Positions 229-29,381 of a DNA stretch of 37,259 nucleotides are shown one piece after another. Within the stretch, counting starts at the first letter, position 1. Each line of letters starts with the position of its first letter. Both the position numbers and the translations under genes were made by a program. The stretch covers positions 1-37,259 of the forward strand of contig JAFGJS010000062.1 of assembly GCA_016928995.1 (NCBI GenBank), written 5' to 3'. The DNA comes from Candidatus Sumerlaeota bacterium (lineage in GTDB: Bacteria > Sumerlaeota > Sumerlaeia > JAFGJS01). The notes under the pieces were generated by a model. That model did not search any database. It saw nothing but the letters and a program-made list of their open reading frames with translations, and had not been told where the DNA came from.

Positions 229-987
229 ATGTTTAAGGGCAAACGGATTGTGGTGGTGATGCCGGCTTACAACGCGGCGGAGACGCTGCAGCGGACGTAT
301 GACGAGGTGATGGCGCAGGAGATCGTGGATCACGTGGTGGTGGTGGATGACGCGAGCCGCGACGCGACGCTGGAGCTGGCGCGGACGCTGCCGAATGCGA
401 CGGCGCATGGGCATGAGGCCAACCGCGGCTATGGCGGGAATCAGAAGACGTGCTACCGGCTGGCGCTGGAGGCGGGGGCGGACATCGTGATCATGGTGCA
501 TCCGGATTATCAGTATACGCCGCAGCTGATTCCGGCTATGGCGGCGTTGATCGCGAACGGGACATACAATTGCGTGTTGGGTTCGCGGCTGCTGGGCGGC
601 GGGGCGCTGAAGGGCGGAATGCCGCTGTGGAAGTACATCGCGAATCGCGGGCTGACGTTCGCGCTGAACGTGGTGTATGGGGCGAAGCTCTCGGAGTATC
701 ACACGGGGTACCGGGCTTTTTCCCGGGAGCTGCTGGAGGCGTTGCCGCTGGAGGAGAACTCGGACGACTTCGTGTTTGATAATCAGATTTTGGCGGAGAT
801 CATCTGGCAGGGCGAGACGATCGCGGAGATCACGTGTCCGACGTTGTATTTTCCGGAGGCGAGCAGCATCAACTTCAAGCGGAGCGTGGATTACGGCTTC
901 GGCTGCCTGGCCACGGCGTGCGAGTATCGTCTGGCGTCCTGGGGTTTGGCGAAGTCGCGGCGGTTTGTCACTAAGCAACGAGTTTAA
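229..987 (+). CDS. Family 2 glycosyltransferase, polyprenyl-phosphate-sugar synthase type
   Basis: This 252-residue protein has the GT-A fold signature of GT2 enzymes: VVMPAYNAAET at the N-terminus, a nucleotide-binding VVVDDASRD segment near residue 40, and HPDYQYTP near residue 90 in the position of the metal-binding acidic motif. It lacks obvious transmembrane helices, like soluble DPM1-type enzymes that transfer a hexose from a nucleotide sugar to polyprenyl phosphate on the cytoplasmic face. The start is supported by a purine-rich GGGGAGGGG at 218-226. Lipid-linked sugars are the donors of GT-C enzymes, and four GT-C/TMTC-like proteins follow downstream, so donor supply for them is a reasonable inference. 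The sugar and acceptor cannot be read from sequence, and a different GT2 role in polysaccharide synthesis remains possible. Confidence 0.85.
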   Translation: MFKGKRIVVVMPAYNAAETLQRTYDEVMAQEIVDHVVVVDDASRDATLELARTLPNATAHGHEANRGYGGNQKTCYRLALEAGADIVIMVHPDYQYTPQLIPAMAALIANGTYNCVLGSRLLGGGALKGGMPLWKYIANRGLTFALNVVYGAKLSEYHTGYRAFSRELLEALPLEENSDDFVFDNQILAEIIWQGETIAEITCPTLYFPEASSINFKRSVDYGFGCLATACEYRLASWGLAKSRRFVTKQRV

Positions 988-1110: not shown

Positions 1111-1374
1111 ATGTCAAAATTGAAAACTATTGAAAAGATAAAATTTGAAAAGCTATTCGGTATGGAATCAGGATACGTTCTTGATTTTTCGAATTTCACA
1201 TTTCAAGAATTTGTTTTAGAGAATGTTAATATTGATATTTATGCTGAAAAGTATAATTTCAGAAGTGGTTCAAAAGCAAATCGTCTCAGAGCGTTTTGGG
1301 AGAAAGAGTCGTATAGTGTTGTCGCCACCCTAAATAAAGCTTTGCTTGAATATTGGAAAACATTAAAAATATGA
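1111..1374 (+). CDS. Small hypothetical protein paired with nuclease (possible defence component)
   Basis: This 87-residue soluble protein carries a block LFGMESGYVLDFS, then FQEFV, then SGSKANRLRAFW. I have seen similar blocks as stand-alone proteins or N-terminal domains next to nuclease or abortive-infection proteins, but I cannot name the family with certainty. Its stop overlaps the start of the following nuclease gene as ATGA, so the two are probably co-translated. An AGG at 1097-1099 may serve as ribosome-binding site. Both genes are clearly AT-richer than the glycosyltransferase before and the TPR genes after, which suggests recent acquisition. The role is unknown; regulation or targeting of the nuclease is only an inference from the coupling. 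Confidence 0.75.
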   Translation: MSKLKTIEKIKFEKLFGMESGYVLDFSNFTFQEFVLENVNIDIYAEKYNFRSGSKANRLRAFWEKESYSVVATLNKALLEYWKTLKI

Positions 1375-1997
1375 ACCATGAACCTATAACTTCGAACGAG
1401 AAAAAACTGTTTAATGAATGCATGCAGACTATTTGCGTGTCTGGCCTCAAACAAACCAATATCGATACGGAAAACTCCAAGCCATTACAATCAATAAATC
1501 AAAATGAACTTAGTGAATTAAAGTCTAAGCTATATTCATTAAATGAAATTTCTCCGCAGACTAGAGGCTTCGCATTTGAGAAGTTTTTAAATAAGCTATT
1601 TTCTATGTATAACCTAGCTCCTCGCGGATCATTTCGGCTAACTGGAGAACAGATTGACGGTAGTTTTCAACTTGATAGATTTACTTATTTAGTTGAAGCA
1701 AAATGGCAGGAGAGACAAGTTGGGAACAGTGATTTGCTTGCCTTCAAAGGAAAAGTGGCTGGTAAAGCTATTTGGTCAAGAGGAATATATATTAGCTATA
1801 GTGGTTTTACACCTGATGGATTAATCGCTTTTTCCAAAGCGGGAAGTACAAATATTATTGGTATAACAGGACAAGATATCCATTTCATATTGGAAGGAGA
1901 ACTGTCCTTTGTTGAGGCAATTCAGTTAAAGACTCGATATGCAGCAGAAACGGGTGAGTTTTGGATTTCTGTTTTCGATCTTCGTCGTGGTCATTAA
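1371..1997 (+). CDS. Mrr-like PD-(D/E)XK restriction endonuclease
   Basis: This 208-residue protein has a helical N-terminal third and then a restriction-endonuclease fold of Mrr type. RGFAFEKFLNKLF gives the first helix, EQIDGSF supplies the catalytic Asp, and YLVEAKWQ supplies the E-x-K pair with the trailing Gln common in Mrr-like nucleases. A further block, RGIYISYSGFT, corresponds to a core strand of the fold. Such enzymes cut foreign or modified DNA. I chose ATG 1371 because it overlaps the upstream TGA as ATGA; a TTG at 1353 would add six residues. No methyltransferase is adjacent, which fits a type IV-like or other stand-alone defence nuclease rather than a classical restriction-modification pair. 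Low GC marks it as likely transferred together with the small upstream gene. Confidence 0.82.
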   Translation: MNHEPITSNEKKLFNECMQTICVSGLKQTNIDTENSKPLQSINQNELSELKSKLYSLNEISPQTRGFAFEKFLNKLFSMYNLAPRGSFRLTGEQIDGSFQLDRFTYLVEAKWQERQVGNSDLLAFKGKVAGKAIWSRGIYISYSGFTPDGLIAFSKAGSTNIIGITGQDIHFILEGELSFVEAIQLKTRYAAETGEFWISVFDLRRGH

Positions 1998-2074: not shown

Positions 2075-4519
2075 GTGATCAGTGTACCGGAACAAGAGAC
2101 ATCCAGACCGCGGCTTGTTTTGATTTCAGCTGGTTTGATTTTGCTGATGCTGCTGGCCTATGAGCCGGTGCGGCATAACGATTTTGTGTATTATGATGAT
2201 GAAGATTATGTGACGAAGAACGTTGAGGTGCAGCAGGGCTTCACGCTGGTGAACGTGATTTGGGCGTTCACCGCGGAGAACAATACGGCGAACTGGCATC
2301 CGTTGACGTGGCTGAGCCATATGGCGGATGTGGAGCTGTTCGGTTTGAATCCGCTGGGGCACCATCTGCATAACCTGGCGTTGCATATGCTCAGCGTTGT
2401 GTTGCTGTTTTGGCTGTTGCAACGGATGACGGGGGCGGCGTGGCGCAGCGCTTTTGCGGCGATGGTGTTTGGGATTCATCCGCTGCATGTGGAGTCGGTG
2501 GCCTGGGCGGCGGAGCGGAAGGACGTGCTGAGCGCGTTGTTCTTTATGCTGACGCTGCATGCTTATGTTTCGTATGTGCGGAAGCGCGGGGCGCTGCGGT
2601 ATATGCTGGTCGCGCTGCTTTTTGCGCTGGGGCTGATGGCCAAGCCGATGCTGGTGACGTTGCCGCTGGTGCTGTTGATTCTGGATGTGTGGCCGTTGCA
2701 GCGGATTCCACAAATCGCGGGCGAGGCGGTTGACGGAGATGATCGTTCATCGCTGGCCGTCGCGCGCGGTCTGATCGTGGAGAAGCTTCCGCTGTTTATC
2801 CTGACGTTGATTTCCTGCGTGGTGACCTTCGTGGTTCAACGGAGCGGCGGGGCGATGATCATCGAAGCACCAGTGAGTGTGCGTTTGTTGAATACGCCGA
2901 TCAATTATATCACTTATATCACTGACATGTTCTGGCCGGCGAAGCTGGCGGTTTTGTATCCTTATGATTTGACTCCGCCGGTCTGGAAGGCGCTCGCGGC
3001 TTTCGCGGTTCTGCTGGCGATTACCGTCGCCGCGCTCTGGCAGCTGTGGCAACGACCCTGGCTGACGGCGGGATGGCTGTGGTTCGGCGTGATGCTGGTT
3101 CCGGTGATCGGCCTGGTGCAGGTCGGGTTGCAATCGACGGCGGATCGTTATATGTATCTGCCTTGCATCGGGATTGCGATGATGGTTGCGTGGACGGCCG
3201 GGCAGGCGGTCGAGAGCTGGCCGCGCGGGAAGCTGGCGTTGTCTGTTTGCGGAGCGCTGCTGGCGGCCGGGATGGCGCTGGGGACACGGGCGCAATTGGC
3301 GCATTGGAAAGACACGAACACGTTGTTCGAGCATACGCTGGCCGTGACTCACGATAATTACCTCGCGTATAACAACCTCGGGGCGATTCGTTATCATCAG
3401 GGGCGATTGGAGGAGGCGGAGGCGCTTTTCTCCCGGGCGATTGAGATTCAGCCGGATTTTCCCAGCACGTATGTGGATCTGGCGGCGGTGTTTTCCAAGC
3501 AGGGGCTGAGCGAAAAGGCGGAGAGTTATCTGAGGAAGGCGTTGAGCATCGATCCGGATCATTTTTTCGCCAATAACAATCTGGCGACGTTGTTTCTGGA
3601 GCAGGGGCGGTTGGACGAGGCGCAGGTTTATTTGGACAAGGCGTTGCAGGTCAAGCCGGAGAGCGTGGCGGCGCTGATGAATCTGTCCACCATCTATATG
3701 CAAGGCGAACAGTATGACAAGGCGATGGAGTGTATGCAGAAAGTGACCCGGCTCGATCCGGATAACTTTCTGGCGTATCAGCGGATGGGAGTGATTTATC
3801 AGGCGTGGGGGCGGCTGGACGATGCAATCGCGGCGTATGAGGATTCGGTGCGGTATTTTCCGGAGAACGGCGAGGGGTATAATAATCTGGGCGTGCTCAA
3901 GGGCCAGAAGGCCTCGCAGGCGAAGACCGCCGAGGAGCATCAGGCTTTGCTCGATGAGGCGGTCGAGTGTTTTCAGCGGAGTCTGGAGATCGATCCAAAC
4001 GGCGTGGAGACTTACAACAACCTTGGCTTTGCGCTAAAAATCCAAGGCCGGTTCAAGGAGGCCGTTCAGAATTATCGCCTTGCGTGCAACGTGGATCCCG
4101 GCAATTTTGACCGGCATTGGAATCTTGGCACGGCGCTGCAGACAATGGGGAATCGCGAGGAAGCCGCGGAGTGTTACCGGCGGACGATTGCGTTGAATCC
4201 GGAGTTTGCGCCTGCGATGAGCAATTTGGCGTGGATTCTGGCGACTCATCCGACTGAGGCGTTGCGCGATCCTTCCGAGGCGGTTGCGCTGGCGGAGAAG
4301 GCCGTGGAGTTGACGTCGCATGAGATTCCGATGGCGCTGGATTCGCTGGCTGCGGCGTATGCGTCGGCCGGCGAATTTGACCAGGCGGCCGGGACGGCAC
4401 AAGAGGCCGTGGAGCGGGCTGAAGCGGCGAATCAGCCACGGATGGCCGGCGATATCCGAAGCCGGCTGGATTTATATCAGGCGGGAAAGCCGTTTTATGA
4501 AAAAAACTCGCAGGATTGA
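2075..4519 (+). CDS. TMTC-like GT-C membrane protein with C-terminal TPRs, copy 1
   Basis: This 814-residue protein begins with a membrane helix followed by a conserved loop containing EPVRHNDF and a YDDED motif (Asp41, Asp42), in the position of the acidic catalytic motif of GT-C glycosyltransferases. HPLHVESVAWAAERKD at 135-150 resembles the HPxHTEAVAxxxxRAD signature of eukaryotic TMTC O-mannosyltransferases. Several more helices follow to about residue 420, then roughly ten TPRs to the end. GT-C enzymes use lipid-linked sugars on the extracytoplasmic side; the TPRs may bind the protein acceptor. I chose GTG 2075 because it matches the N-termini of the paralogues and has AGGA about 9 nt upstream; the frame extends back to a TTG inside the nuclease gene, which is unlikely. 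Glycosyl transfer is inferred, not shown. Confidence 0.85.
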   Translation: MISVPEQETSRPRLVLISAGLILLMLLAYEPVRHNDFVYYDDEDYVTKNVEVQQGFTLVNVIWAFTAENNTANWHPLTWLSHMADVELFGLNPLGHHLHNLALHMLSVVLLFWLLQRMTGAAWRSAFAAMVFGIHPLHVESVAWAAERKDVLSALFFMLTLHAYVSYVRKRGALRYMLVALLFALGLMAKPMLVTLPLVLLILDVWPLQRIPQIAGEAVDGDDRSSLAVARGLIVEKLPLFILTLISCVVTFVVQRSGGAMIIEAPVSVRLLNTPINYITYITDMFWPAKLAVLYPYDLTPPVWKALAAFAVLLAITVAALWQLWQRPWLTAGWLWFGVMLVPVIGLVQVGLQSTADRYMYLPCIGIAMMVAWTAGQAVESWPRGKLALSVCGALLAAGMALGTRAQLAHWKDTNTLFEHTLAVTHDNYLAYNNLGAIRYHQGRLEEAEALFSRAIEIQPDFPSTYVDLAAVFSKQGLSEKAESYLRKALSIDPDHFFANNNLATLFLEQGRLDEAQVYLDKALQVKPESVAALMNLSTIYMQGEQYDKAMECMQKVTRLDPDNFLAYQRMGVIYQAWGRLDDAIAAYEDSVRYFPENGEGYNNLGVLKGQKASQAKTAEEHQALLDEAVECFQRSLEIDPNGVETYNNLGFALKIQGRFKEAVQNYRLACNVDPGNFDRHWNLGTALQTMGNREEAAECYRRTIALNPEFAPAMSNLAWILATHPTEALRDPSEAVALAEKAVELTSHEIPMALDSLAAAYASAGEFDQAAGTAQEAVERAEAANQPRMAGDIRSRLDLYQAGKPFYEKNSQD

Positions 4520-6977
4520 TCATACGGAGCAAATGAAGTCCAGGCGGACGGGGCTGATTGTATCCGCTGTCCTGGCCGCGTTGATCCTGGCTGCGTATGA
4601 GCCGGTGCGGCATAATGATTTTGTGCGGTACGATGACGAGCATTACATCACTCAGAATTTACAGGTCCAACAGGGATTGACCTGGGAGAATGTCCAGTGG
4701 GCGTTCACGTCGAGGAATCGAACGGCCAACTGGCATCCATTGACCTGGCTCAGCCATATGACGGACATCGAGTTGTTCGGACTGAATCCGCAAGGGCATC
4801 ATTTTCATAATGTGGCGCTGCATGCGGTCAGCGTAATTCTGTTGTTCTGGCTGCTGTGGAGGCTGACGGGTTCAATCGGGCTTGGCGCGTTCACGGCTGC
4901 GGTGTTCGGCTTGCATCCGCTGCATGTGGAGTCGGTGGCGTGGGCGGCGGAACGGAAGGACGTGCTGAGCGCGTTGCTGTTCATACTGACGCTCGCCGCG
5001 TATGCGTATTACGCGAAAAAAGGCGGGGGCGTGCGCTACGCGCTGGTCGTGTTGTGTTTTGCCCTGGGGCTGATGGCCAAGCCGATGCTGGTTACATTGC
5101 CGATTGTGCTGTTGCTGTTGGACGTCTGGCCATTGAAGCGCATTCCGGCTTTATCCGGCGAGGCGGCGAAAGGCGAAGTTGATTCAAGCATTGCGAAAAA
5201 GTCCACGGGCGGTTCGAAAAAGCCTGCTGAAAATTCGGCGGCGATTGTTCGCGGTTTGATCGTGGAGAAGCTTCCGCTGTTTCTGCTGACGTTGATTTCC
5301 TGCGTCGTGACGTTCAAGGTTCAACAGACGGCAGGTGCGATGCAGTTTCAGGCGCCGCTGAGCGTGCGTCTCGCCAATATTCCGCTGAATTATCTCAGTT
5401 ACTTATCCAGCTTATTCTGGCCGGTTGATCTAGCCGTGCTTTATCCATATTTGTTCGACCGGCCGTGGTGGCAGCCGCTGGGCGCTTTGGCGGTGTTGCT
5501 GGGAATCACCGGATTTTTTATGTACCAAATCCGCACGCGGCCGTGGTTGATCGTGGGATGGCTCTGGTTCGGCGTGATGCTGTTTCCCGTGATCGGATTG
5601 GTGCAGGTGGGCGTGCAATCCACGGCGGATCGTTATATGTATCTGCCGTGCATCGGGATTGCGATGATGCTTTCCATGACGATCGCCGAGCTGACGGCGA
5701 GATGGCCGTATCGTAAGGCGATCCTGGGATTCGCGGGCGGACTGCTTGTGCTGGGGATGGTGTTGACGGCGCGCGTACAGACGACTTACTGGAAGGACAC
5801 GGTGACTCTGTTCGAGCATGCGCTGGCGGCGGTTCCGGACAATTACGCCGTGCATAACACGTTGGGCGTGTATTATTGCAAGGACCAAGCCGTCGATCTC
5901 GACAAGGCCGCGGAACATTTTCAGCGGACGATTGAGATTCAGCCGGATTTTCCCAACCCGTATGTCGGCCTGGCTTTTGTTTATAATAAGCAGGATCGGG
6001 AAGAAGACGCGGTTCGCGAGCTGCAGCATGCGTTGAAAATCGAACCGGGCCATCCATACGCGTGCAATAATCTGGCGAATATTCTGATGAATCGCGGCGA
6101 GCTGGATGAGGCGGAGAGTTATTTGCGCAAGGCGCTGAAGTCCGAGCCGTATAATATCGTGGCGAATATGAACATGTTTACGATTTGCATGCAGCGTTCG
6201 CGCGCGGAAGAGGCAACGTCTTATATGCAGCGGGTGCTGGAGTTGGACCCGGATTATGCTCCGGCGCTGAAAAATCTGGCGAGGAATTATGAGTCGCGGC
6301 AAATGATCGCCGAGGCGATTGCGGCGTACGAGCGCCTCGTGCAAGTCGAACCGGATAACGCCGAAGCGCTTAACAGCCTCGGCGTGCTCAAGGGCAATCA
6401 AGGTCTGTTTGACGAGGCTATCGAGTGCTTTCGCAAGAGCTTGAAATACGATCCGGACGGCGTTGAAGTCTGCAATAATCTTGGCATTACATTGAAACGG
6501 CTGGAGCGTTTTCAGGAAGCTGTTCCATATTTCCGCAAGGCGCGAAAAGTCGCGCCGGACGATATTCAGTGTTTTTGGAATCTTGCTTATTGTCTGCATA
6601 TGAGCGGAGAATATGGCGAGGCTGTGGCCGGTTATCGTCAGATCCTGCAATCCAATCCGCAATTCATGCCCGTATTATGCAACCTGTCCTGGATTCTGGC
6701 CACGAGTCCGGACAGCGATCTACGAAATCCTACAGAGGCGGTTGCGCTGGGTCTCAAGGCCGCCGAATTATCGAAGTTCGGCAATCCCGCCGTTTTAAAC
6801 GCATTGGCCGCGGCCTATGCCGCCGCAGGCGATTTCGACAAGGCGGTAGCGACCGCGCAAAAAGCGATCAGCCTGGCCGACGCCGCCGGTCAACCGGACT
6901 TGGCCGAAGATTTCAAAAGCCGCCTGCAATTATATCAATCCGGAAAGCCGTTCTATGAATCCTCTCCGGAAAAGTGA
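4497..6977 (+). CDS. TMTC-like GT-C membrane protein with C-terminal TPRs, copy 2
   Basis: This 826-residue paralogue has the same layout: an N-terminal helix, EPVRHNDFVRYDDE, the HPLHVESVAWAAERKD block, about a dozen hydrophobic segments and around ten TPRs. It carries an extra Ser/Lys-rich hydrophilic loop (about 35 residues with STGGSKKPAEN) that the other copies lack or have shorter. ATG 4497 lies inside the end of copy 1 and gives a 23-nt overlap identical in geometry to the copy 2/copy 3 junction. An internal ATG at 4533, with GGAG just upstream, is a possible alternative start. The C-terminus, GKPFYESSPEK, matches that of copy 1. It is most likely co-transcribed and translationally coupled with its neighbours. 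The function is inferred as for copy 1. Confidence 0.85.
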   Translation: MKKTRRIDHTEQMKSRRTGLIVSAVLAALILAAYEPVRHNDFVRYDDEHYITQNLQVQQGLTWENVQWAFTSRNRTANWHPLTWLSHMTDIELFGLNPQGHHFHNVALHAVSVILLFWLLWRLTGSIGLGAFTAAVFGLHPLHVESVAWAAERKDVLSALLFILTLAAYAYYAKKGGGVRYALVVLCFALGLMAKPMLVTLPIVLLLLDVWPLKRIPALSGEAAKGEVDSSIAKKSTGGSKKPAENSAAIVRGLIVEKLPLFLLTLISCVVTFKVQQTAGAMQFQAPLSVRLANIPLNYLSYLSSLFWPVDLAVLYPYLFDRPWWQPLGALAVLLGITGFFMYQIRTRPWLIVGWLWFGVMLFPVIGLVQVGVQSTADRYMYLPCIGIAMMLSMTIAELTARWPYRKAILGFAGGLLVLGMVLTARVQTTYWKDTVTLFEHALAAVPDNYAVHNTLGVYYCKDQAVDLDKAAEHFQRTIEIQPDFPNPYVGLAFVYNKQDREEDAVRELQHALKIEPGHPYACNNLANILMNRGELDEAESYLRKALKSEPYNIVANMNMFTICMQRSRAEEATSYMQRVLELDPDYAPALKNLARNYESRQMIAEAIAAYERLVQVEPDNAEALNSLGVLKGNQGLFDEAIECFRKSLKYDPDGVEVCNNLGITLKRLERFQEAVPYFRKARKVAPDDIQCFWNLAYCLHMSGEYGEAVAGYRQILQSNPQFMPVLCNLSWILATSPDSDLRNPTEAVALGLKAAELSKFGNPAVLNALAAAYAAAGDFDKAVATAQKAISLADAAGQPDLAEDFKSRLQLYQSGKPFYESSPEK

Positions 6978-8904
6978 TTCGCTGCCGGACGCCGCGGCGC
7001 GGCGATGGATAATTGTCATCATTTCCGCAGGGCTGGCTGCGTTGATCCTGATCGCGTTTGAGCCGGTCAGGCATAACAGTTTTATCGCGTTCGACGACAA
7101 CAGCTACATCACGGCCAATCCGCATGTGCAGTCGGGATTCACGGTTGATTCCATCGTGTGGGCGTTTACTTCGGGGCATTCCTCCAACTGGCATCCGCTG
7201 ACGTGGCTGAGTCATATGCTGGATGCGCAGCTTTTCGGCATGAATCCGCTTTGGCATCATTGGCATAATCTGGCGTTGCATCTCATCGCGACGATTTTGC
7301 TCTTTCTGATTCTGCACAAGATGACCGGCGCTGTTTGGCCCTGCGCGTTCACGGCGATGGTGTTTGGCATTCATCCGCTGCGAGTGGAGTCGGTGGCCTG
7401 GGCGGCGGAGCGCAAGGATGTGCTGAGCGGCGTGTTTTGGATGCTGACGCTTGCGGCGTATTATTATTATGTCAAGGCGGGCGGCGTTGTCCGGTATTTG
7501 CTGGTGGCGCTGTGCCTTGCGCTGGGCTTGATGGCCAAGCCGATGCTGGTCAGCCTGCCGTTGATTTTATTGCTGCTCGATTTCTGGCCGCTGGGGCGAG
7601 TTCGGGAATTCATTGTCGATGCTGATGAAAAAGCGAACGCGATGCCGCTGCGGAAATTGATCGTGGAGAAAATTCCTCTGCTGCTGCTGGTTTTGATTTC
7701 CTGCGTCGTCACCTACCTGGTTCAGCGTCACGGCAAAAGCACGTCGCCGGATCTTGCGATGGTTTATCGCGTGTTGAATGCGATGAACAGTTGCACCGCT
7801 TATCTTGGGAAAGTTGTTTATCCGGTTGATCTGGCGTTGCTGTACCCGCAGCCGCAACATTTGCCGTTGTGGAAACCGGCGGCGTCGGCGGTCATTCTGG
7901 TTTTGATAACGGCCTTCGTGATCATGCAACGATTTCGCCGGCCATATTTAGCCGCGGGCTGGTTTTGGTATTTGATCGCGCTCGCGCCGGTGATCGGGAT
8001 CGTGCAAGTCGGGGCGCAGTCCATGGCCGACCGCTACACGTATCTGCCGGCGATCGGCCTGTCAATGATGGCCGCGTGGGGCGCGGCCGAACTTTCCGCA
8101 AGATGGCGGCGCCAGCAGGCGATTCTGTCGATCCTGTGCGCGGGGATTGCGCTGGCGATGATCATGGGCACGCGGGCGCAACTGCGTTATTGGACGGACA
8201 GCGTGACGCTGTTTGAGCATGCCTTGGCGGTGACCGAGGATAACTATCCAATGCATCACAGCCTGGGCTTTGCGCTGGCGGAACAAGGCCGGCTGGATGA
8301 GGCGGCGAAACATTTTGTGCAGGCGCTGAAAATCTGGCCCGAGGCGAAGCTGGATGTTGAGCTCGCCAATCTGATGATCAAACAAAAAAAGTATGACGAT
8401 GCGCTGGACTTGCTGCGGGATGTTATCAAAGAGGAGCCAGACAATTCGCTCGCGTATTACAACATGGGGATCGCGTATCAGCTGCAGGAGAAGTTCGGCG
8501 CGGCGGCGGCCGCTTATGAGCAGGCGGTGCGGCTTGACCGGAACAATGCCAAGGCGTTTAACAACCTGGGCGTGCTCAAGGCGCAACAGGGATTGATTGA
8601 CGAAGCGGCGGAGTGTTTTCGGGAGTGCCTGCGCGGCGCGCCGTACAACGCCACGGCGCATCGTCAGCTGGCGTCGATGCTGCTGATGCAGGGGCGGAAC
8701 GATGAGGCCGCCGCGCAGTGCCGCGCCGCGCTGAAGATCAATCCGCGGGACGCCGAGGCGAATTTTTTCCTCGCTTATGCGCTGCGCATGACGGGCAAGC
8801 CTGACGAGGCCGCGGAATACGCGCGCAAGGCCGTCGAGCTGGCCAGAGCCGCGGGCGATGATGAACTGGCGCGGGAATTTGAGCAGCGGATGCAATTCGA
8901 TTAA
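6955..8904 (+). CDS. TMTC-like GT-C membrane protein with C-terminal TPRs, copy 3 (shortest)
   Basis: This 649-residue paralogue keeps the membrane half, with EPVRHNSFIAFDDN replacing YDDE and HPLRVESVAWAAERKD replacing the HPLH form. Only about six TPRs follow. The C-terminus stops at EQRMQFD, before the GKPFYE tail seen in copies 1 and 2, and the ILATxP-containing repeat present in the other three copies is missing. ATG 6955 overlaps copy 2 by 23 nt and no later canonical start precedes the first helix, so the start is firm. Loss of TPRs with preservation of the membrane domain suggests divergence in acceptor or partner binding rather than decay. The first acidic motif reads FDDN rather than YDDE, and copy 4 has YDDN, so copies 3 and 4 form a subgroup. 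Confidence 0.84.
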   Translation: MNPLRKSDSLPDAAARRWIIVIISAGLAALILIAFEPVRHNSFIAFDDNSYITANPHVQSGFTVDSIVWAFTSGHSSNWHPLTWLSHMLDAQLFGMNPLWHHWHNLALHLIATILLFLILHKMTGAVWPCAFTAMVFGIHPLRVESVAWAAERKDVLSGVFWMLTLAAYYYYVKAGGVVRYLLVALCLALGLMAKPMLVSLPLILLLLDFWPLGRVREFIVDADEKANAMPLRKLIVEKIPLLLLVLISCVVTYLVQRHGKSTSPDLAMVYRVLNAMNSCTAYLGKVVYPVDLALLYPQPQHLPLWKPAASAVILVLITAFVIMQRFRRPYLAAGWFWYLIALAPVIGIVQVGAQSMADRYTYLPAIGLSMMAAWGAAELSARWRRQQAILSILCAGIALAMIMGTRAQLRYWTDSVTLFEHALAVTEDNYPMHHSLGFALAEQGRLDEAAKHFVQALKIWPEAKLDVELANLMIKQKKYDDALDLLRDVIKEEPDNSLAYYNMGIAYQLQEKFGAAAAAYEQAVRLDRNNAKAFNNLGVLKAQQGLIDEAAECFRECLRGAPYNATAHRQLASMLLMQGRNDEAAAQCRAALKINPRDAEANFFLAYALRMTGKPDEAAEYARKAVELARAAGDDELAREFEQRMQFD

Positions 8905-8920
8905 ACGGAGCAGGCGTTTG

Positions 8921-11119
8921 ATGTCTTCTGAACAGACCGTTGATGCGCCGTCGCGGGATTCGGCGAAGTTTGCGCCGCTATGGATCGCGGCGGGTTTGAT
9001 CGCCCTGGCGCTGATCGCCTTTGAGCCGGTGCGGCATAACGCTTTTGTGCAGTACGACGACAATCATTATCTGACGGAAAACGCGAATCTGCAGTCCGGC
9101 TTGTCGTTGCAGTCGGCGGCCTGGGCGTTCACCACCGGGCACGCCTGCAACTGGCATCCGGTCACCTGGCTGAGCCACGCGCTGGACATCGAGCTGTTCG
9201 GCTTCAATCCCCTGGGCCATCATTGGCATAATGTCTTGCTGCATGCCGCGGTCACGATTCTGCTGTTTCTGATTCTGCGGAACATGACCGGCGCGCTATG
9301 GCGGAGCGCGTTTGTGGCGATGGTTTTTGGCGTTCATCCCTTGCGCGTCGAGTCCGTGGCGTGGGCGTCGGAGCGGAAGGATCTATTGTGCGCGTTGTTC
9401 TGGATGCTGACGATTGCGGCGTATTGCGCGTACGTGCGGCGCGGCGGGATCGTCCGGTATTTGCTGGTTGTGCTGTGCCTGGCGCTGGGATTGATGGCCA
9501 AGCCGATGGCGGTCAGCCTGCCGCTGGTGCTGCTGCTGCTGGATGGCTGGCCTTTGCGGCGCGTGCGCTGGTTGGCTGGCGACGATGGCGAGGCGGCGCC
9601 GTTGAAGCGATTGATCGTGGAAAAAATTCCGCTCTTCGCCTTGTGCCTGGCGTCCTGCATCGTGACTTATCTGGCGCAGGATCGCGCGATGCGCGCCTCG
9701 GCGGATTGGCCGTTGTTGTTTCGCGCGATCAACGCGCTGGACTCCTATGTGAATTATCTCTGGAAGCTGCTTTGGCCGGCGAAACTGGCGTTGTTTTATC
9801 CGTATCCTGAGCAGTGGCATTGGTGGAAGCTTTTGATTGACGCCGTGGTCGTTCTGGCATGCACGGGTTTTGCGGCGGTTCGGTTTTCCAAACAGCCGTA
9901 TCTCGCCGTGGGCTGGCTCTGGTATGTGATCAGCTTGATTCCGGTGATCGGTCTGGTGCAGGTCGGTTCGCAGGCGATGGCGGATCGCTACACATACCTG
10001 CCCTCGATCGGCGTCTTGATCATGCTCGCCTGGGCTGTTGCGGATTGGACCGCGAGTTGGCCGCATCGGAAAATTCTGCTCGGGGCGCTATGCGGATTGC
10101 TGGCGCTGGGGATGATCTGGGGAACGCGGGCGCAAACGGCGTATTGGAGGGATAGCGTCGCGCTGTTTGAGCACACGCTGGCCGTGACGGAAATGAACTA
10201 CGTGATTCAATACGAGCTGGGGCTGGTGCTCTGGCAGCAAGGCGAAGCCGAGGCGGCGGCCGATCATTTCAACCGGGCGCTGGAGATCTGGCCGGGTTAT
10301 CCGGACGCGAATGTGAACATGGCCGTGATTCTGATGACACGCAATCAGTTCGAGAAGGCGCTGACGCATCTTCAGCGCGCGCTGCAGGCCAATCCGAATT
10401 ATGACAAGGCGCATTATAACATGGGCGCGTTGTTTCAGGCGCAGGGAAAATTGGATCCGGCGATGGCGGCTTATCAGCAGGCCGTGCGCTGCAATCCGAA
10501 TCATGCCGGCGCATATAATAATCTGGGGATGCTGAAGGGGCAAAGCGGCAAGATCGGCGAGGCGATGGAGTGTTTCCACGAGAGTCTGCGCATTGATCCG
10601 GATAATGTGCAGGCGCGCTGCAATTACGCCCAGGCGCTGATGATGCTAGGGCGCCATAAAGATGCCCTGGAGCAATTTCAGGCAGCGTTTCGCATCAATC
10701 CGATGGATACGGATATTTGCACGGGAGTAGCGTCTGCCTTTTTTGCGACGGGAGGATTCTATGGGGCCGTTGATTATTATCGTCGCGCATTGGAGCTGCA
10801 GCCAGATAACGTATTGGCGTTGAATGGATTAGCGTGGATTCTGGCCACGGCGCCGCATCCTGACATTCGAGATCCGCAGGATGCAATTTTGAAGGCGCGA
10901 AGGGCTTGTGAACTGACTTCTTTTCAATATTCCAATTTTTTATATACGTTAGCAGCAGCTTGTGAAAGCGCAGGACAGTCTGATGCTGCGATGGAATACG
11001 GCAGTCAGGCGTTAGACTTAGCGCAGGCTGAAGGTCAGGATGGATTGGCGCGGGCAATCACGGAGTTGCTGCGACGTAACGCCTCGCAATCTGATGCTGA
11101 AGCTTTGCGGGAGAAATAG
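8921..11119 (+). CDS. TMTC-like GT-C membrane protein with C-terminal TPRs, copy 4
   Basis: This 732-residue paralogue opens with a hydrophilic stretch, MSSEQTVDAPSRD, then the first helix, EPVRHNAFVQYDDN and HPLRVESVAWASERKD. About eight TPRs follow. It begins 16 nt after the stop of copy 3, with GGAG at 8907-8910 about 10 nt before the ATG, so this junction is spaced rather than overlapping. An in-frame extension to 8858 would overlap copy 3 but lacks homology. The last ~420 nt are visibly AT-richer than the rest of the gene, which may indicate a patch of different origin. No clear terminator follows before the convergent gene ending at 11211. Function is inferred as for copies 1-3. Confidence 0.84.
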   Translation: MSSEQTVDAPSRDSAKFAPLWIAAGLIALALIAFEPVRHNAFVQYDDNHYLTENANLQSGLSLQSAAWAFTTGHACNWHPVTWLSHALDIELFGFNPLGHHWHNVLLHAAVTILLFLILRNMTGALWRSAFVAMVFGVHPLRVESVAWASERKDLLCALFWMLTIAAYCAYVRRGGIVRYLLVVLCLALGLMAKPMAVSLPLVLLLLDGWPLRRVRWLAGDDGEAAPLKRLIVEKIPLFALCLASCIVTYLAQDRAMRASADWPLLFRAINALDSYVNYLWKLLWPAKLALFYPYPEQWHWWKLLIDAVVVLACTGFAAVRFSKQPYLAVGWLWYVISLIPVIGLVQVGSQAMADRYTYLPSIGVLIMLAWAVADWTASWPHRKILLGALCGLLALGMIWGTRAQTAYWRDSVALFEHTLAVTEMNYVIQYELGLVLWQQGEAEAAADHFNRALEIWPGYPDANVNMAVILMTRNQFEKALTHLQRALQANPNYDKAHYNMGALFQAQGKLDPAMAAYQQAVRCNPNHAGAYNNLGMLKGQSGKIGEAMECFHESLRIDPDNVQARCNYAQALMMLGRHKDALEQFQAAFRINPMDTDICTGVASAFFATGGFYGAVDYYRRALELQPDNVLALNGLAWILATAPHPDIRDPQDAILKARRACELTSFQYSNFLYTLAAACESAGQSDAAMEYGSQALDLAQAEGQDGLARAITELLRRNASQSDAEALREK

Positions 11120-12472: not shown

Positions 12473-12650
12473 TCAGCGAAGAGCTTATAAATCATGATAC
12501 AGCAACAGAGGGCGGCGGCAGCGCTCCGCACTGGACAAAAAAGTCATGCGGCTCCGGTTCGCTTCTCTCTTGCAGTTGTATTTTTCAACGCGAAGATGCA
12601 AATGTACAGCATGTTTTCGCGTTTTCAATGGATTCAGGGGCGAAACGTCA

Positions 12651-13955
12651 ATGACTAAAATCAGCGGATGGGGGCGATACCCCGTCGTCAACGCGGCCAC
12701 CTTCTCCTTTGAAACACCGGGGCAACTCAGCGAGCATCTCGCGCGGCCCGGGGCCATGATTCCTTTTGGCATGGGGCGCAGCTACGGCGATAGCGCCCTC
12801 TGCGAGCAGATTGTCTGCACCCGGCGCGCACGCAGCATCGAATCGTTCGATCCTGAAACCGGCGTTGTGGTTTGCGACGCCGGAGTCAGCCTGGCCGAAC
12901 TGATCGACGTGTTCCTGCCGCGCGGCTGGTTTCTCAGCATCACCCCCGGCACGAAATACATCACAGTCGGCGGCGCCATCGCAAGCGACGTTCACGGCAA
13001 GAATCATCACTCCGCCGGATGCTTCAGCGCGTGCGTCGATTGGTTCGAACTGATGCTGCCGGACGGCAGCGTCACGCGTTGCTCCGCGAAGAAGAACGCC
13101 GAGCTCTTCCGCGCCACTTGCGGCGGCATGGGCCTCACCGGCGTGATCGTCCGCGCGCAAGTCCGGCTTCAGCCCGTGCCCAGTGCGATGATCGACCAGA
13201 CCATCGTCAAGGCGCGCAACCTGGAGGAAGCCTTCGAACTTTTCGAACAATACAGCAGCTGGACTTACTCCGTGGCGTGGATCGATTGCCTGGCGCAGGG
13301 CAATCACCTGGGCCGCTCGCTGCTGATGGTCGGCGAGCATGCCGGGAACCAGCCCTTGCGGCTGCTGCCGAACCGCAAACTCAACGTGCCGGTGGATTTT
13401 CCGGCTTTCACGCTGAATTCGCTCTCCGTCTCGCTGTTCAATTCGCTCTATTACGCCAAGACCTTCGGCCGCATGACACAAAACCAGACGGCCATTGATC
13501 CGTTTTTTTATCCGCTTGATGCGATCCATAACTGGAACCGGATTTACGGCAAGCCGGGTTTCACGCAGTACCAGTTCGTGCTGCCACGCGCGGCGAGCTA
13601 CGATGGACTGAAGCAGATTCTCACGCGCATCGCCGCTTCCGGACAAGGCTCGTTCCTCGCCGTGCTGAAACTTTTCGGCGCGGAAAACGACAACTACCTG
13701 TCCTTTCCGATGGAGGGCTACACGCTGGCGCTCGATTTCAAGATCACGCCGCAGTTGTTTCCTCTGCTCGATACGCTGGATGAAATGGTGCATGAAATCG
13801 GCGGACGCGTGTACCTCACCAAGGACGCGCGGCTGCGTCCCGACACCTTCCGCCAGGGTTATCCCGGGCTGGAGGACTTTATGAAGGTCCGCCGGCAATA
13901 CGGGCTGCCGGAAAAGATGCAATCCCTGCAATCACGGAGGTTGAACCTGCAATGA
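12651..13955 (+). CDS. DprE1-like FAD-dependent polyprenylphosphoryl-ribose oxidase
   Basis: This 434-residue flavoprotein has a PCMH-type FAD-binding domain with GRSYGDS at 42-48 and DVHGKNHH at 113-120. The latter and the following SAGCF and GGMGLTGVI blocks closely resemble mycobacterial DprE1, as does the C-terminal pattern with YLTKDAR and VRRQYGL. DprE1 oxidises decaprenylphosphoryl-ribose at C2; the keto product is reduced by DprE2 to the arabinose form. The next gene is a DprE2-like dehydrogenase overlapping by ATGA, so the pathway assignment rests on both genes. ATG 12651 has AGGGGCG 8 nt upstream; longer frames add an unconserved leader. The native polyprenol length is unknown, and other sugar substrates are possible in a non-mycobacterium. 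Confidence 0.85.
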   Translation: MTKISGWGRYPVVNAATFSFETPGQLSEHLARPGAMIPFGMGRSYGDSALCEQIVCTRRARSIESFDPETGVVVCDAGVSLAELIDVFLPRGWFLSITPGTKYITVGGAIASDVHGKNHHSAGCFSACVDWFELMLPDGSVTRCSAKKNAELFRATCGGMGLTGVIVRAQVRLQPVPSAMIDQTIVKARNLEEAFELFEQYSSWTYSVAWIDCLAQGNHLGRSLLMVGEHAGNQPLRLLPNRKLNVPVDFPAFTLNSLSVSLFNSLYYAKTFGRMTQNQTAIDPFFYPLDAIHNWNRIYGKPGFTQYQFVLPRAASYDGLKQILTRIAASGQGSFLAVLKLFGAENDNYLSFPMEGYTLALDFKITPQLFPLLDTLDEMVHEIGGRVYLTKDARLRPDTFRQGYPGLEDFMKVRRQYGLPEKMQSLQSRRLNLQ

Positions 13956-14683
13956 ATCTGCTCATACTTGGCGCCAACTCAGATATCGCCATGGCCGCGG
14001 CGCATGAATTCGCCGCCCATGAAGGCGCGACGATCCTGCTCGCTTCTCGCGACGTGGAGCGGCTGGAGCGCAAAGCCAAGGATCTGGAAATTCGCCATCA
14101 GATCCAGGCCCGCGTGCTGCCCTTCGACGCTGTAGACTACGCGTCGCATGCCGCCTTTTACGAAGCCCTCGATCCCAAACCCGACGGCGTGATTCTGGCC
14201 TTCGGCTACCTCGGCGACCAAGCCTCGGCCCAGCGCGACTGGGGCGAGGCGCGCCGCATCATCGAGAGCAACTACACCGGCGCCGTGAGCATCCTGGAAA
14301 TCATCGCCGCCGACTTCGAGCAAAAGGGGCGCGGTTTCATCATCGGCATCAGCAGCGTGGCCGGTGTGCGCGGCCGCCAGAGCAACTACATCTACGGCTC
14401 GGCCAAGGCGGGCTTGAAGGAATACCTCAGCGGCCTGCGGCAACGCTTGTTTAAATGCGGCGTGCATGTGATGACCGTGCTTCCGGGTTTCACCCGCACC
14501 GCGATGACCGAAGGGATGGACCTGCCCGCACGCCTCACCGCTGAGCCGGAGGACGTGGGCCGCGACATCTATCGCGCCTGGCGCAAGCGTCGCCGGGTCA
14601 TTTACAGCCGCTGGTTCTGGCGCTGCATCATGCACATCATTCGCCACGTGCCGGAATTTGTTTTCGTCCGCACGAAACTTTGA
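13952..14683 (+). CDS. DprE2-like short-chain dehydrogenase
   Basis: This 243-residue SDR has a nucleotide-binding GANSDIA motif at residues 7-13, FGYLGDQ near 85, catalytic SS at 134-135 and the Tyr148-x3-Lys152 pair. The arrangement and the C-terminal IIRHVPEFVF resemble DprE2, which reduces the 2-keto intermediate made by DprE1 to complete epimerisation of polyprenylphosphoryl ribose to arabinose. The start overlaps the upstream stop as ATGA, with CGGAGG at 13935-13940. DprE1 and DprE2 act as a pair, and the coupling fits equimolar synthesis. A strong hairpin with a T-run follows at 14723. A generic SDR role is less likely given the partner. Confidence 0.83.
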   Translation: MNLLILGANSDIAMAAAHEFAAHEGATILLASRDVERLERKAKDLEIRHQIQARVLPFDAVDYASHAAFYEALDPKPDGVILAFGYLGDQASAQRDWGEARRIIESNYTGAVSILEIIAADFEQKGRGFIIGISSVAGVRGRQSNYIYGSAKAGLKEYLSGLRQRLFKCGVHVMTVLPGFTRTAMTEGMDLPARLTAEPEDVGRDIYRAWRKRRRVIYSRWFWRCIMHIIRHVPEFVFVRTKL

Positions 14684-21843: not shown

Positions 21844-23214
21844 ATGACCGTGGGCCAGATGGGCTTTGGCATCTGGGGCAACCTGCGCCTGCTGGTTGAT
21901 CTGTTCGAGAGCGTGCTGCCGCAGGGTTTTCAGCAGGGGGTTACGCGGCGCGTGGCGGAACTGCGCGCGGGAAACGATGACGAGGCGTTGCGGCGTTTCG
22001 CAGGCGCGTCGCTGACGGTGTTCGCGGGGATCGCGGCGATCTCCACGCTGATCGTCTATCTCTTTGCGGACACGCTGGCGCTGAAATACACCGGCTCCGC
22101 AGACAACGCGCCGCTGGTGCGGTTGATCGCGGCGGCGCTGCCGGGGCTGACCTTCAGCGGCCTGCTCTACGCCGTGCTGCGGGGATTGAAGCGCGTGCGG
22201 CGGCTGGCGCTGATCAGCGCGGCCGCGGCGGCGATCATGGCCGGCGTGGCGATTCCGCTGATCGTGCTGTTCGAGCTTCCGGGGCTGCTGCTCTCGCTGA
22301 CCGTGGTGGAACTGCTGCAGATCGCGTTGCTGACCAGGGCGGTGAAACGCGATCTGACGCTGACCTTGCAGCTGCCGCGCTGGGAGGATTGGCGCATGTT
22401 CAGCGGTTTGGGCGCGCTGTTGTTCGGCAGCGGGATCGTGACGTGGACCTCGAACAACTGGCTGCGCGTCGATTACCTGGCGCTGTATGGCGCCGAGACA
22501 GCCGGTTTGTTCGAGGCGGCTTTTCGCCTGACGAATTTCATCCTGGCCGCCGTGCTGGCGACGATGATGGCGCATGTGTTTCCGCGCATGAGCGAGATCG
22601 AATCGCGCGAGGAGTTCAGCCGCGAGCTGAACCTGACGTTGCGCGCGTACCTGCTGGTCTGCACACCGGGGCTGCTGATCACGGCGTTGCTGGAGAACGA
22701 ACTGCTCGCTTTGTTCTATGACTCGACATTCATCGATGCGGCGCGGATGCATCTGATGGCGCCGTTGCTGATGGCGTGCTTTTTCCAGATTGTGATGTGG
22801 TGCTTCATGATCACGCTGATCCCGCGCAAGCGCCATGCGGCGTATTTTCTAACCTGCCTGGGGATCGCGTTGGTGATACCGGCGTTTTATCTGCCGTTGC
22901 GCCAGGCGGACATACCAGCGTCGCTGGCGCTGGCCATGCCGCCGGCCTATGCGCTGATCGGACTGGGGCTGATGCTGTATCTGATGCTGCGTATGGGCTT
23001 TTACTGGGAATGGGCCGCCTTTCGCATGGCGGCGGTCTCCGCGCTCGTGCTCTTCTGGGCGCTTTTTCTCGGCGGCGACGCAACGGAATTTCGCCTGATG
23101 CGCATCGCGGCGTTGCCGCTTTGGGCCGCGCTGGCCGTGCCGCTGGGCGAATGGCGGCGCTATCTGCGCCAGTCGCGCGAGCTGTTGCGCGAAAGGCTCC
23201 GCGAATCGCGTTAA
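21844..23214 (+). CDS. Oligosaccharide flippase / MATE-like polysaccharide transporter
   Basis: This protein of at least 456 residues has about a dozen hydrophobic segments in the pattern of Wzx-type flippases (MOP superfamily), which move lipid-linked oligosaccharides across the inner membrane. Supporting stretches are NNWLRVDYLALYGAETAGLF, LLITALLENELLALFY and repeated hydrophobic helices to a basic C-terminus (LRQSRELLRERLRESR). ATG 21844 is the first canonical start, but the frame is open back to 21676, and the codons from about 21751 (TIRKILAAIFWIGSSRGAW) look like the missing first helix. No ATG, GTG or TTG occurs there in frame, so a frameshift, sequence error or unusual start is likely. 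Its stop overlaps that of cysE in a TTAA. Confidence 0.78.
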   Translation: MTVGQMGFGIWGNLRLLVDLFESVLPQGFQQGVTRRVAELRAGNDDEALRRFAGASLTVFAGIAAISTLIVYLFADTLALKYTGSADNAPLVRLIAAALPGLTFSGLLYAVLRGLKRVRRLALISAAAAAIMAGVAIPLIVLFELPGLLLSLTVVELLQIALLTRAVKRDLTLTLQLPRWEDWRMFSGLGALLFGSGIVTWTSNNWLRVDYLALYGAETAGLFEAAFRLTNFILAAVLATMMAHVFPRMSEIESREEFSRELNLTLRAYLLVCTPGLLITALLENELLALFYDSTFIDAARMHLMAPLLMACFFQIVMWCFMITLIPRKRHAAYFLTCLGIALVIPAFYLPLRQADIPASLALAMPPAYALIGLGLMLYLMLRMGFYWEWAAFRMAAVSALVLFWALFLGGDATEFRLMRIAALPLWAALAVPLGEWRRYLRQSRELLRERLRESR

Positions 23215-27826: not shown

Positions 27827-29254
27827 TTACCACTGAATGCGATATTGGGCCTGGTAATATCTCCGGCCGTCCTTGCGCGTTGCGCGGAGCGGACTCAGCT
27901 CATCAAACCTGCGCAAAAGGCCCTTCTGGCGCAATTCGTCCAGAAAATCGCTCACGGACGAATGAGACAGCCCCTCGACCACCGCATCCGCGCTTTTTCC
28001 GGTGATTTTTAACGAGACGATGCGGCATTGCGCGCGCCGCGCAGCAGCATGGAATTCTTCGCGCACGTCAATCTCGAGCCTGTTATTTCGCGGCTCCATC
28101 TTTACCTGGACCGGTTGTATTGCTGGAGCCTGAACGCGATTCTGTTCCTGCGCGATAAATTCATTCCTCGCCGTCGCTGCCTCAGCCGCGGCGCTCGGAG
28201 CCTGCCCTTGCGCGGGATTGACGTTCACCGCCGGAGCCGGAACAGCGCGATCGGATCCGGCGTCGGATAATGTGAAATCCGCACCCTGCATGGATTGAGG
28301 CGGACTCGCGCTGGACGCGACGACCGCCGGCTTGGGCTGTGTGGACAAGTGCCACTGTAGAAAACGCGCCCCCGCGCCGATCAACAGCAACGCCAAACCC
28401 AGCGCGGTCAGCTTCACAAAATTGCCCAATAAGAACGATTTCAATCCATTCAACGGCGCGATCAAAAAGGCGTCCAACGCGCATTTGAGCTTAAACAGCA
28501 ATGGCCCGTCGAACAGGGTTGCGGTAAACGGCGCATCCAGCGCGTAAAGCGCCGCTTCCGCCCTCAGCGCGGCTCTGCTGCCGCTCATCAGGGCCTGGAT
28601 CGCGGTCGCCGTCAGCATCACGCGCAACGCGGAAGACTTGCGAAGCCGCAACACCGGACGCTTCTCGTTCAACATGGAAAGCGCCTCGCGCCGGATCATC
28701 ACAAGCGCCTTATCCAGCTCCCGGCTGACTTGCGTCGGATGGAGCTCCAGCCGCTCGGCGATCTCAACCTTTTTCATCCGGTTGACGTAAAACAGCAAAA
28801 CGATCTCCCGATGCTGCGGCTTAAGCCTGCTCATCGCCTTCTTCAATATTTTCAACTTCCGTTTCTGGTCGAGCTGCTCCTGCAGATCAGGCGTATCTGG
28901 ATCTTCAATGGCGTGCGCGACATTGTCGTACGGCACATTGAACGCCAATGTGGAATGCTTACAGTTCCGCCGATGCCAATCCACGGCAAGGTTGCGTGTG
29001 ATGCGGGTGATCCACGTCGAGAAGCGAAACGAAGGATCGAATCGATCCATATTCAAATAGACCCGCAGAAAGACTTCCTGAACCAGATCCTCCGCGGCAT
29101 CCTGATCGCGCAGCTGAGCATAGGCCAATGAATAAACGATGCGGTAATTGCGCTGCGTCAAGGCTTCAAACGCCTCACAATCCCCCTCCTTCGCAGCCAA
29201 AATCAATTCATTGTCGTCCGCGATGATATATTGGGGTTGCATCAAGCCGGACAT
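27827..29254 (-). CDS. ECF-type sigma factor fused to a transmembrane and C-terminal domain
   Basis: The first ~195 residues are a typical ECF sigma factor. Region 2 contains YAQLRDQDAAEDLVQEVFLRVY and the promoter-melting segment FSTWITRITRNLAVDWHRR; region 4 contains HREIVLLFYVNRMKKVEIAERL and a helix-turn-helix ending TQVSRELDKAL. Normal ECF sigmas end here. This protein (475 residues) continues with a hydrophobic stretch, then a clear transmembrane helix near residues 279-299 (TALGLALLLIGAGARFLQW), a Pro/Ala/Gln-rich linker and a ~90-residue C-terminal domain, probably periplasmic, with LEIDVREEFHAAARRA and VSDFLDELRQKGLL. It could be a membrane-held sigma released by a signal, or a sigma with a built-in sensor. 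ATG 29254 was chosen over GTG 29263 because AGG sits 8 nt upstream. Confidence 0.83.
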   Translation of the reverse strand: MSGLMQPQYIIADDNELILAAKEGDCEAFEALTQRNYRIVYSLAYAQLRDQDAAEDLVQEVFLRVYLNMDRFDPSFRFSTWITRITRNLAVDWHRRNCKHSTLAFNVPYDNVAHAIEDPDTPDLQEQLDQKRKLKILKKAMSRLKPQHREIVLLFYVNRMKKVEIAERLELHPTQVSRELDKALVMIRREALSMLNEKRPVLRLRKSSALRVMLTATAIQALMSGSRAALRAEAALYALDAPFTATLFDGPLLFKLKCALDAFLIAPLNGLKSFLLGNFVKLTALGLALLLIGAGARFLQWHLSTQPKPAVVASSASPPQSMQGADFTLSDAGSDRAVPAPAVNVNPAQGQAPSAAAEAATARNEFIAQEQNRVQAPAIQPVQVKMEPRNNRLEIDVREEFHAAARRAQCRIVSLKITGKSADAVVEGLSHSSVSDFLDELRQKGLLRRFDELSPLRATRKDGRRYYQAQYRIQW

Positions 29255-29381
29255 GCATTGCACCTGTGCCGTCAGATCTTGCTTTCAATGATATACGTAT
29301 TCTTGGCGCTTTGGATTGAAGCGGCCATGCCGCCGCCTTGGCCCGAATTTCTCACCGCCCAGCACGTTTTACACAGTTACA

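Follow-up and report, generated by a model that had tools for sequence, protein, structure and literature searches.

Organization of the GT-C/TPR gene array

The window (the whole 37,259-nucleotide stretch of Candidatus Sumerlaeota DNA that was analysed) contains, at positions 2075-11119, four consecutive genes on the forward strand that were called as open reading frames and encode GT-C/TPR proteins (Table 1). The initial annotation had described them as four tandem paralogues, and this was borne out by the open reading frames of 814, 826, 649 and about 732 amino acids, whose N-terminal domains (N-domains) align end to end with 53-65% identity and more than 150 invariant positions. Because the copies are homologous, a chance resemblance between them is excluded. 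The acidic DD motif that had been noticed in the first loop of the polytopic N-domain is indeed invariant in the four copies, together with a HPLxVESVAWAxERKD block, and the C-terminal remainder of all four consists, as the same annotation had it, of TPRs (Pfam TPR_1, E-values from 1e-30 to 1e-53). A 23-nt overlap joins copy 1 to copy 2 and copy 2 to copy 3, and about 16 nt separate copies 3 and 4, as would be the case in a single transcription unit. A gene of the GT2 family, resembling dolichol/polyprenyl-phosphate-sugar synthases, lies 1.1 kb upstream of the array. Given this gap of about 1.1 kb and the restriction-endonuclease-like ORF that it contains, GT2 and the array need not share an operon; this ORF is possibly an insertion that split them.

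Table 1. Features of the window, with positions counted from its first nucleotide.
Feature	Position	Strand	Remarks
GT2, dolichol/polyprenyl-phosphate-sugar-synthase-like	229..987	+	Pfam PF00535 1.4e-21; proposed donor synthase
Mrr_cat restriction-endonuclease-like ORF	1353-1997		Pfam 5.8e-7; between GT2 and array; region looks more AT-rich than its surroundings
GT-C/TPR copy 1	2075..4519	+	814 aa, GTG start; PMT_2 in N-domain 2.4e-6, over curated cut-off
DD motif of copy 1 (D41-D42)	2195..2200	+	Predicted first periplasmic loop; corresponds to TMTC motif M1
GT-C/TPR copy 2	4497..6977	+	826 aa; 23 nt overlap with copy 1
GT-C/TPR copy 3	6955..8904	+	649 aa; 23 nt overlap with copy 2; modelled by AlphaFold2
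GT-C/TPR copy 4	8921..11119	+	About 732 aa; PMT_2 1.6e-5 in whole protein, just under cut-off
DprE1-like oxidase and DprE2-like reductase pair	12546-14683		2.6e-121 and 1.6e-61, both below curated cut-offs
Wzx-like flippase gene	21844-23214		
Sigma-70 regions 2 and 4 (ECF-like)	27827-29263	-	In N-terminal part of a 478-aa ORF; long C-terminal extension

Fold and membrane topology of the array proteins

The structure of copy 3 was predicted with AlphaFold. From the single sequence the mean pLDDT was 56 and the membrane part was poor, which was remedied by an alignment of 64 sequences, the resulting AlphaFold2 model having a mean pLDDT of 93.4 and a pTM of 0.90. With VIA-align, the N-domain of this model matched STT3 (8age_A, Z 20.5 over 329 residues) and Pmt4 (9i5k_A, Z 18.7 over 355 residues), and its C-terminal part matched TPR proteins. 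The Foldseek lists for the model were mostly made of TPR proteins, and a viral fold library returned chiefly TPR and repeat proteins. ArnT was not among the 50 VIA matches listed, which carries no weight against ArnT. The GT-C core that had been proposed from sequence motifs is therefore present in the copy 3 model, as illustrated by the STT3 and Pmt4 matches, and with their modelled multi-TM fold and acidic first-loop residues the array proteins belong to the GT-C glycosyltransferase superfamily. Pfam matches within the N-domain were sparse: PMT_2 scored 28.3 bits for copy 1 (cut-off 26.1) and, at a loose threshold, two of the four copies matched, the second one more weakly. The profiles A1 and A5 searched against PDB sequences yielded no match.

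The helices of the model correspond to 11 predicted transmembrane segments. The conserved blocks are located in loops 1, 2, 3 and 5, all on one side of the membrane, and the helix count places the TPRs on this same side. Helix counting in the model thus predicts that the catalytic loops and the TPRs are periplasmic. A positive-inside charge bias was clear in copies 2 and 3 but not in copies 1 and 4, so the periplasmic location of the TPRs rests mainly on the model and on the parallel with TMTC proteins.

Relationship to TMTC proteins and other GT-C enzymes

TMTC proteins combine a GT-C domain with TPRs and carry out the O-mannosylation of cadherin-type acceptors. The resemblance to them first noted in the array, a HPxxVESVAWAxERKD block, held in part: the block is present, homologous and colinear with the TMTC-type block, but its signature is a different one, HPxxVESVAWxxERKD in the array family against HPIHTEAVxxxVGRAELL in DUF1736-positive TMTC-type proteins. 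When the array family was aligned by hhalign with four DUF1736-positive bacterial proteins (L137-L140), a probability of 99.95% and an E-value of 6.5e-38 were obtained over 398 columns, and hence the two groups are homologous throughout the N-domain. Together with the topology of the model, this alignment upholds the suggestion of a TMTC-like architecture. Nevertheless, a Pfam profile search found no match to PF08409 (DUF1736) in the window genome or in the four N-domains, whereas among 40 genomes of the phylum 8 contain PF08409, 5 of them with a score over the cut-off.

Seven motifs, M1 to M7, were defined for TMTC proteins, with metal-ligand roles proposed from homology models (PMC7801869). 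They were counted in 140 N-domains of the family, numbered as in copy 3. The DD of M1 is almost invariant (D47 in 140/140, D48 in 138/140), as are the Arg of M3 (139/140), the Lys of M4 (140/140) and, in M7, the Arg (139/140) and the Tyr (140/140), the array having DRYxY, with E changed to D relative to ERxxY. The RxD of M3 is present as RKD. Instead, NWHP is found at M2 in place of SHKSYRP, the Glu of M4 is replaced by Pro in 130/140, the Asp of M5 (DW) by Phe, Leu, Tyr or Ile in 132/140, and the second Pro of M6 is Gly in 135/140. Both proposed metal ligands, the E of KE(T/Q)xxT and the D of DW, are consequently replaced in the array family, whereas the DUF1736-positive proteins keep the M4 Glu and the M5 Asp in all four cases. 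Since DUF1736 and two proposed ligand motifs are missing, the array family is not TMTC/GT105; from its sequences, the family is a sister branch of TMTC with a varied active site. As the proposed metal-ligand residues are unconserved, its donor chemistry could differ.

Like TMTC1-4 and bacterial TMTC-type proteins, the array proteins have an 11-TM GT-C N-domain with DD in EL1, a HPxHxE block with an Arg in EL2, a Lys in EL3, (D/E)RxxY in EL5 and a TPR tail on the catalytic side. Unlike TMTC/GT105, they have no DUF1736 and no DW, KPMxVT stands for KE(T/Q)xxT, RKD for RAE and (S/A/C)NWHP for the SHKSYRP region, and they form a large bacterial set of their own. With the dolichol-P-mannose-dependent PMTs (Pmt4/POMT) and STT3 they share the GT-C fold, copy 1 also giving a PMT_2 match over the cut-off, but they carry TPRs instead of a MIR domain and give no PDB profile match. 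The loss of both putative metal ligands of the TMTC models would suit proteins that have given up sugar transfer and serve envelope proteins as membrane-anchored TPR scaffolds or chaperones. We consider this highly improbable, because the DD, R, K and DRxxY residues are retained in nearly all of the 140 N-domains and because such a role leaves the linkage to a lipid-P-sugar-synthase-like gene, described below, unexplained. In a literature search that covered a minority of the subscription journals, neither a paper describing the bacterial GT-C/TPR family nor a report of a biochemically tested member was found.

Distribution, phylogeny and divergence of the TPR tails

At least 581 confirmed loci of the GT-C/TPR family were retrieved in a GTDB scan covering many phyla, the best 77 of them coming from Planctomycetota, Desulfobacterota, Verrucomicrobiota, Acidobacteriota, Nitrospirota, Hydrogenedentota and others. 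Two or more domain ORFs, a few of them split or partial, were present in 35 of these 77 loci. Tandem expansions therefore recur across phyla and the four-gene array itself is ordinary. At one of these loci (L057, 1-19120), a Planctomycetia contig consists nearly entirely of tandem GT-C/TPR genes, with 13 domain ORFs, some of them split.

Relatives of the family, mostly divergent, occur in 30 of the 39 genomes of the class, and three further ones lie elsewhere in the window genome (on C85, C122 and C20). Orthology of the four copies across the class was considered and rejected, since none of the class genomes searched has a close relative of them, the best other N-domain scoring 246 bits against 780-793. 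Among the matches listed, the nearest relatives belong to Planctomycetota. In the phylogenetic tree, the window copies, as the pairs 1+2 and 3+4, fall within one supported clade (100/99), and other arrays also tend to group by locus. This window clade also takes in, on a long branch, a Planctomycetota sequence (L086), so a simple duplication within a single genome is not proven.

The TPR tails serve as protein-binding modules, and such regions often diverge quickly. Between the window copies, TPR identity amounts to 34-49% compared with 53-65% for the N-domains and is the lower of the two in all six pairs; the same holds for 48 of 50 adjacent tandem pairs. At the sequence level, this faster divergence fits a shared donor with varied acceptors. 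It is no proof of a division of labour, however, given that fast divergence is the usual tendency of TPRs.

Linkage to a dolichol-P-mannose-synthase-like GT2 gene

The only PDB match of GT2 was the dolichol-P-mannose synthase of P. furiosus (5mlz, 1e-11), and the gene is the sole GT2 orthologue in the window genome (571 bits, against 87 for the next paralogue). GT2 was checked against every ORF in the best 77 loci, a strong orthologue being defined by an E-value of at most 1e-70. Under this definition, 10 of the 77 loci have a strong orthologue, where the genome-wide density of these orthologues would predict 0.28. The comparison was extended to 41 whole genomes, which were chosen after the linkage at the loci had been seen and are thus slightly enriched for linked cases. 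They contain 40 GT2 orthologues in 37 genomes, of which 34 have a single copy, and all 41 carry GT-C/TPR genes (1-23 per genome, among the matches listed). For at least 14 of the 40 orthologues a family N-domain is located no more than 5 kb away, where 0.73 would be expected, and six orthologues are only 12-56 bp away from a family gene on the same strand. This linkage spans phyla, and in three members of the class (G021, G022 and G033) the GT2 orthologue is located 1-3 kb from a divergent relative of the family. Taken together, these sequence comparisons support a coupling, new here, between the GT-C/TPR family and a single dolichol-P-mannose-synthase-like GT2, even if most family members have neither GT2 nor pilin alongside. 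In-frame TAGs were noted in three GT2 orthologues; in one of these, L024, the match simply overruns the stop of the gene itself (ORF ending at 9255).

Type IV pilin neighbours and alternative acceptors or donors

After GT2, the next recurrent neighbour in the clustering was a type IV pilin, with 10 genes in 8 loci. The pilin gene is directly upstream of the family gene in L024, L051 and L056, flanks it in L031 and lies within 2.7 kb of it in L017, L026, L072 and L085; several of the pilin-adjacent cases are Desulfobacterota. In L072, from Desulfonema magnum 4be13, there are four family copies, with the pilin gene about 2.2 kb from the first. A pilin within about 3 kb of a family gene was found in 8 of the 41 genomes against 2.3 expected, but these same loci had supplied the pilin profile and the linkage is suggestive only. 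The association of a transferase gene with an adjoining pilin, observed in the first four loci, is not found in the window, and no pilin-like ORF is present there or on its contig. The window genome has 34 pilin-like N-methylation matches, most of them in ORFs some 200-300 aa long; one match is about 0.3 kb away from the paralogue on C85, as chance could give. With a run of at least five on C85 (e.g., C85:81957-85320), these matches amount to a large pilin/pseudopilin-like expansion.

A pilin gene with its dedicated glycosyltransferase alongside is the gene order of TfpO and TfpW in Pseudomonas aeruginosa, and in several Desulfobacterota the family gene likewise adjoins a type IV pilin gene. 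The array proteins differ by their TPR tail, which to our knowledge TfpO and TfpW lack, and the window has no pilin gene. Both enzymes are glycosyltransferases of P. aeruginosa pilins, and TfpW adds D-Araf to the pilin (PMC11841053). In the window, a DprE1-like and DprE2-like pair (Table 1) suggests that polyprenyl-P-arabinofuranose may be synthesized in this genome; the array could then be a TfpW-like set of arabinosyltransferases using this donor. This is very unlikely: an ABC gene on the opposite strand separates the pair from the array, the window shows no recognisable polyprenyl-P phosphoribosyltransferase, and neighbour clustering, in which linkage to DprE-like genes was looked for, revealed no DprE-like family recurring beside GT-C/TPR genes, whereas GT2 does recur.

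The pairing of a polyprenyl-P-sugar synthase with a GT-C transferase is also characteristic of the Gtr/GT136 three-component systems of extracytoplasmic glycosylation, through which bacteria modify their O-antigen (PMC11127046). By analogy with these systems or with ArnT, the GT-Cs might decorate a surface polysaccharide or lipid, rather than protein, with single sugars, the TPRs serving complex assembly, and a Wzx-like flippase gene is indeed found in the window. The array resembles Gtr/GT136 in its polyprenyl-P-sugar-synthase-like gene paired with GT-C genes, but the target of those systems is polysaccharide, whereas here many GT-Cs correspond to one donor synthase and no dedicated flippase was found. 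Up to 23 paralogues (among the matches listed) for one synthase would better suit many protein acceptors; moreover, TPR tails bind proteins, and what recurs as a neighbour, apart from GT2, is a pilin gene rather than polysaccharide genes. A polysaccharide or lipid acceptor is hence considered unlikely, while remaining the most plausible of the alternatives.

Proposed function of the array

We therefore favour, with a probability of roughly 0.6 for the system as a whole, a lipid-P-sugar-dependent extracytoplasmic protein glycosyltransferase system. GT2 would load polyprenyl phosphate with one sugar at the cytoplasmic face, and a putative flippase would flip this lipid-P-sugar donor across the membrane. 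Each GT-C would then move the sugar to Ser/Thr residues of an exported protein gripped by its TPRs, through periplasmic catalytic loops bearing the Asp pair in EL1, ERKD in EL2, Lys in EL3 and DRxxY in EL5. The four copies would use a common donor and different acceptors, type IV pilins or pilin-like proteins being the likeliest acceptors in some lineages. The initial suggestion that each copy may serve different acceptors is backed indirectly by the linked single-copy GT2 and by the faster divergence of the TPRs than of the N-domains. In this scheme, we infer catalysis, the sugar, the lipid-P-sugar donor, the protein acceptor, pilins as acceptors and the division of labour.

More tentatively, and at odds that we place below even, the array may represent an undescribed and widespread form of bacterial protein O-glycosylation, in which one conserved polyprenyl-P-sugar synthase would supply tandemly expanding TMTC-like GT-C/TPR transferases, each picking its own exported acceptors, pilins included, via periplasmic TPRs. 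It would be a bacterial equivalent of the human TMTC system with its four enzymes. The GT2 and pilin neighbours turn what was a vague resemblance into specific predictions for gene knock-out and mass spectrometry. If the proposal is true, many phyla, among them Planctomycetota, Desulfobacterota, Verrucomicrobiota and Acidobacteriota, would run a TMTC-like glycosylation with modular acceptor choice, and such a bacterial system could be easier to study and to engineer than the human enzymes.
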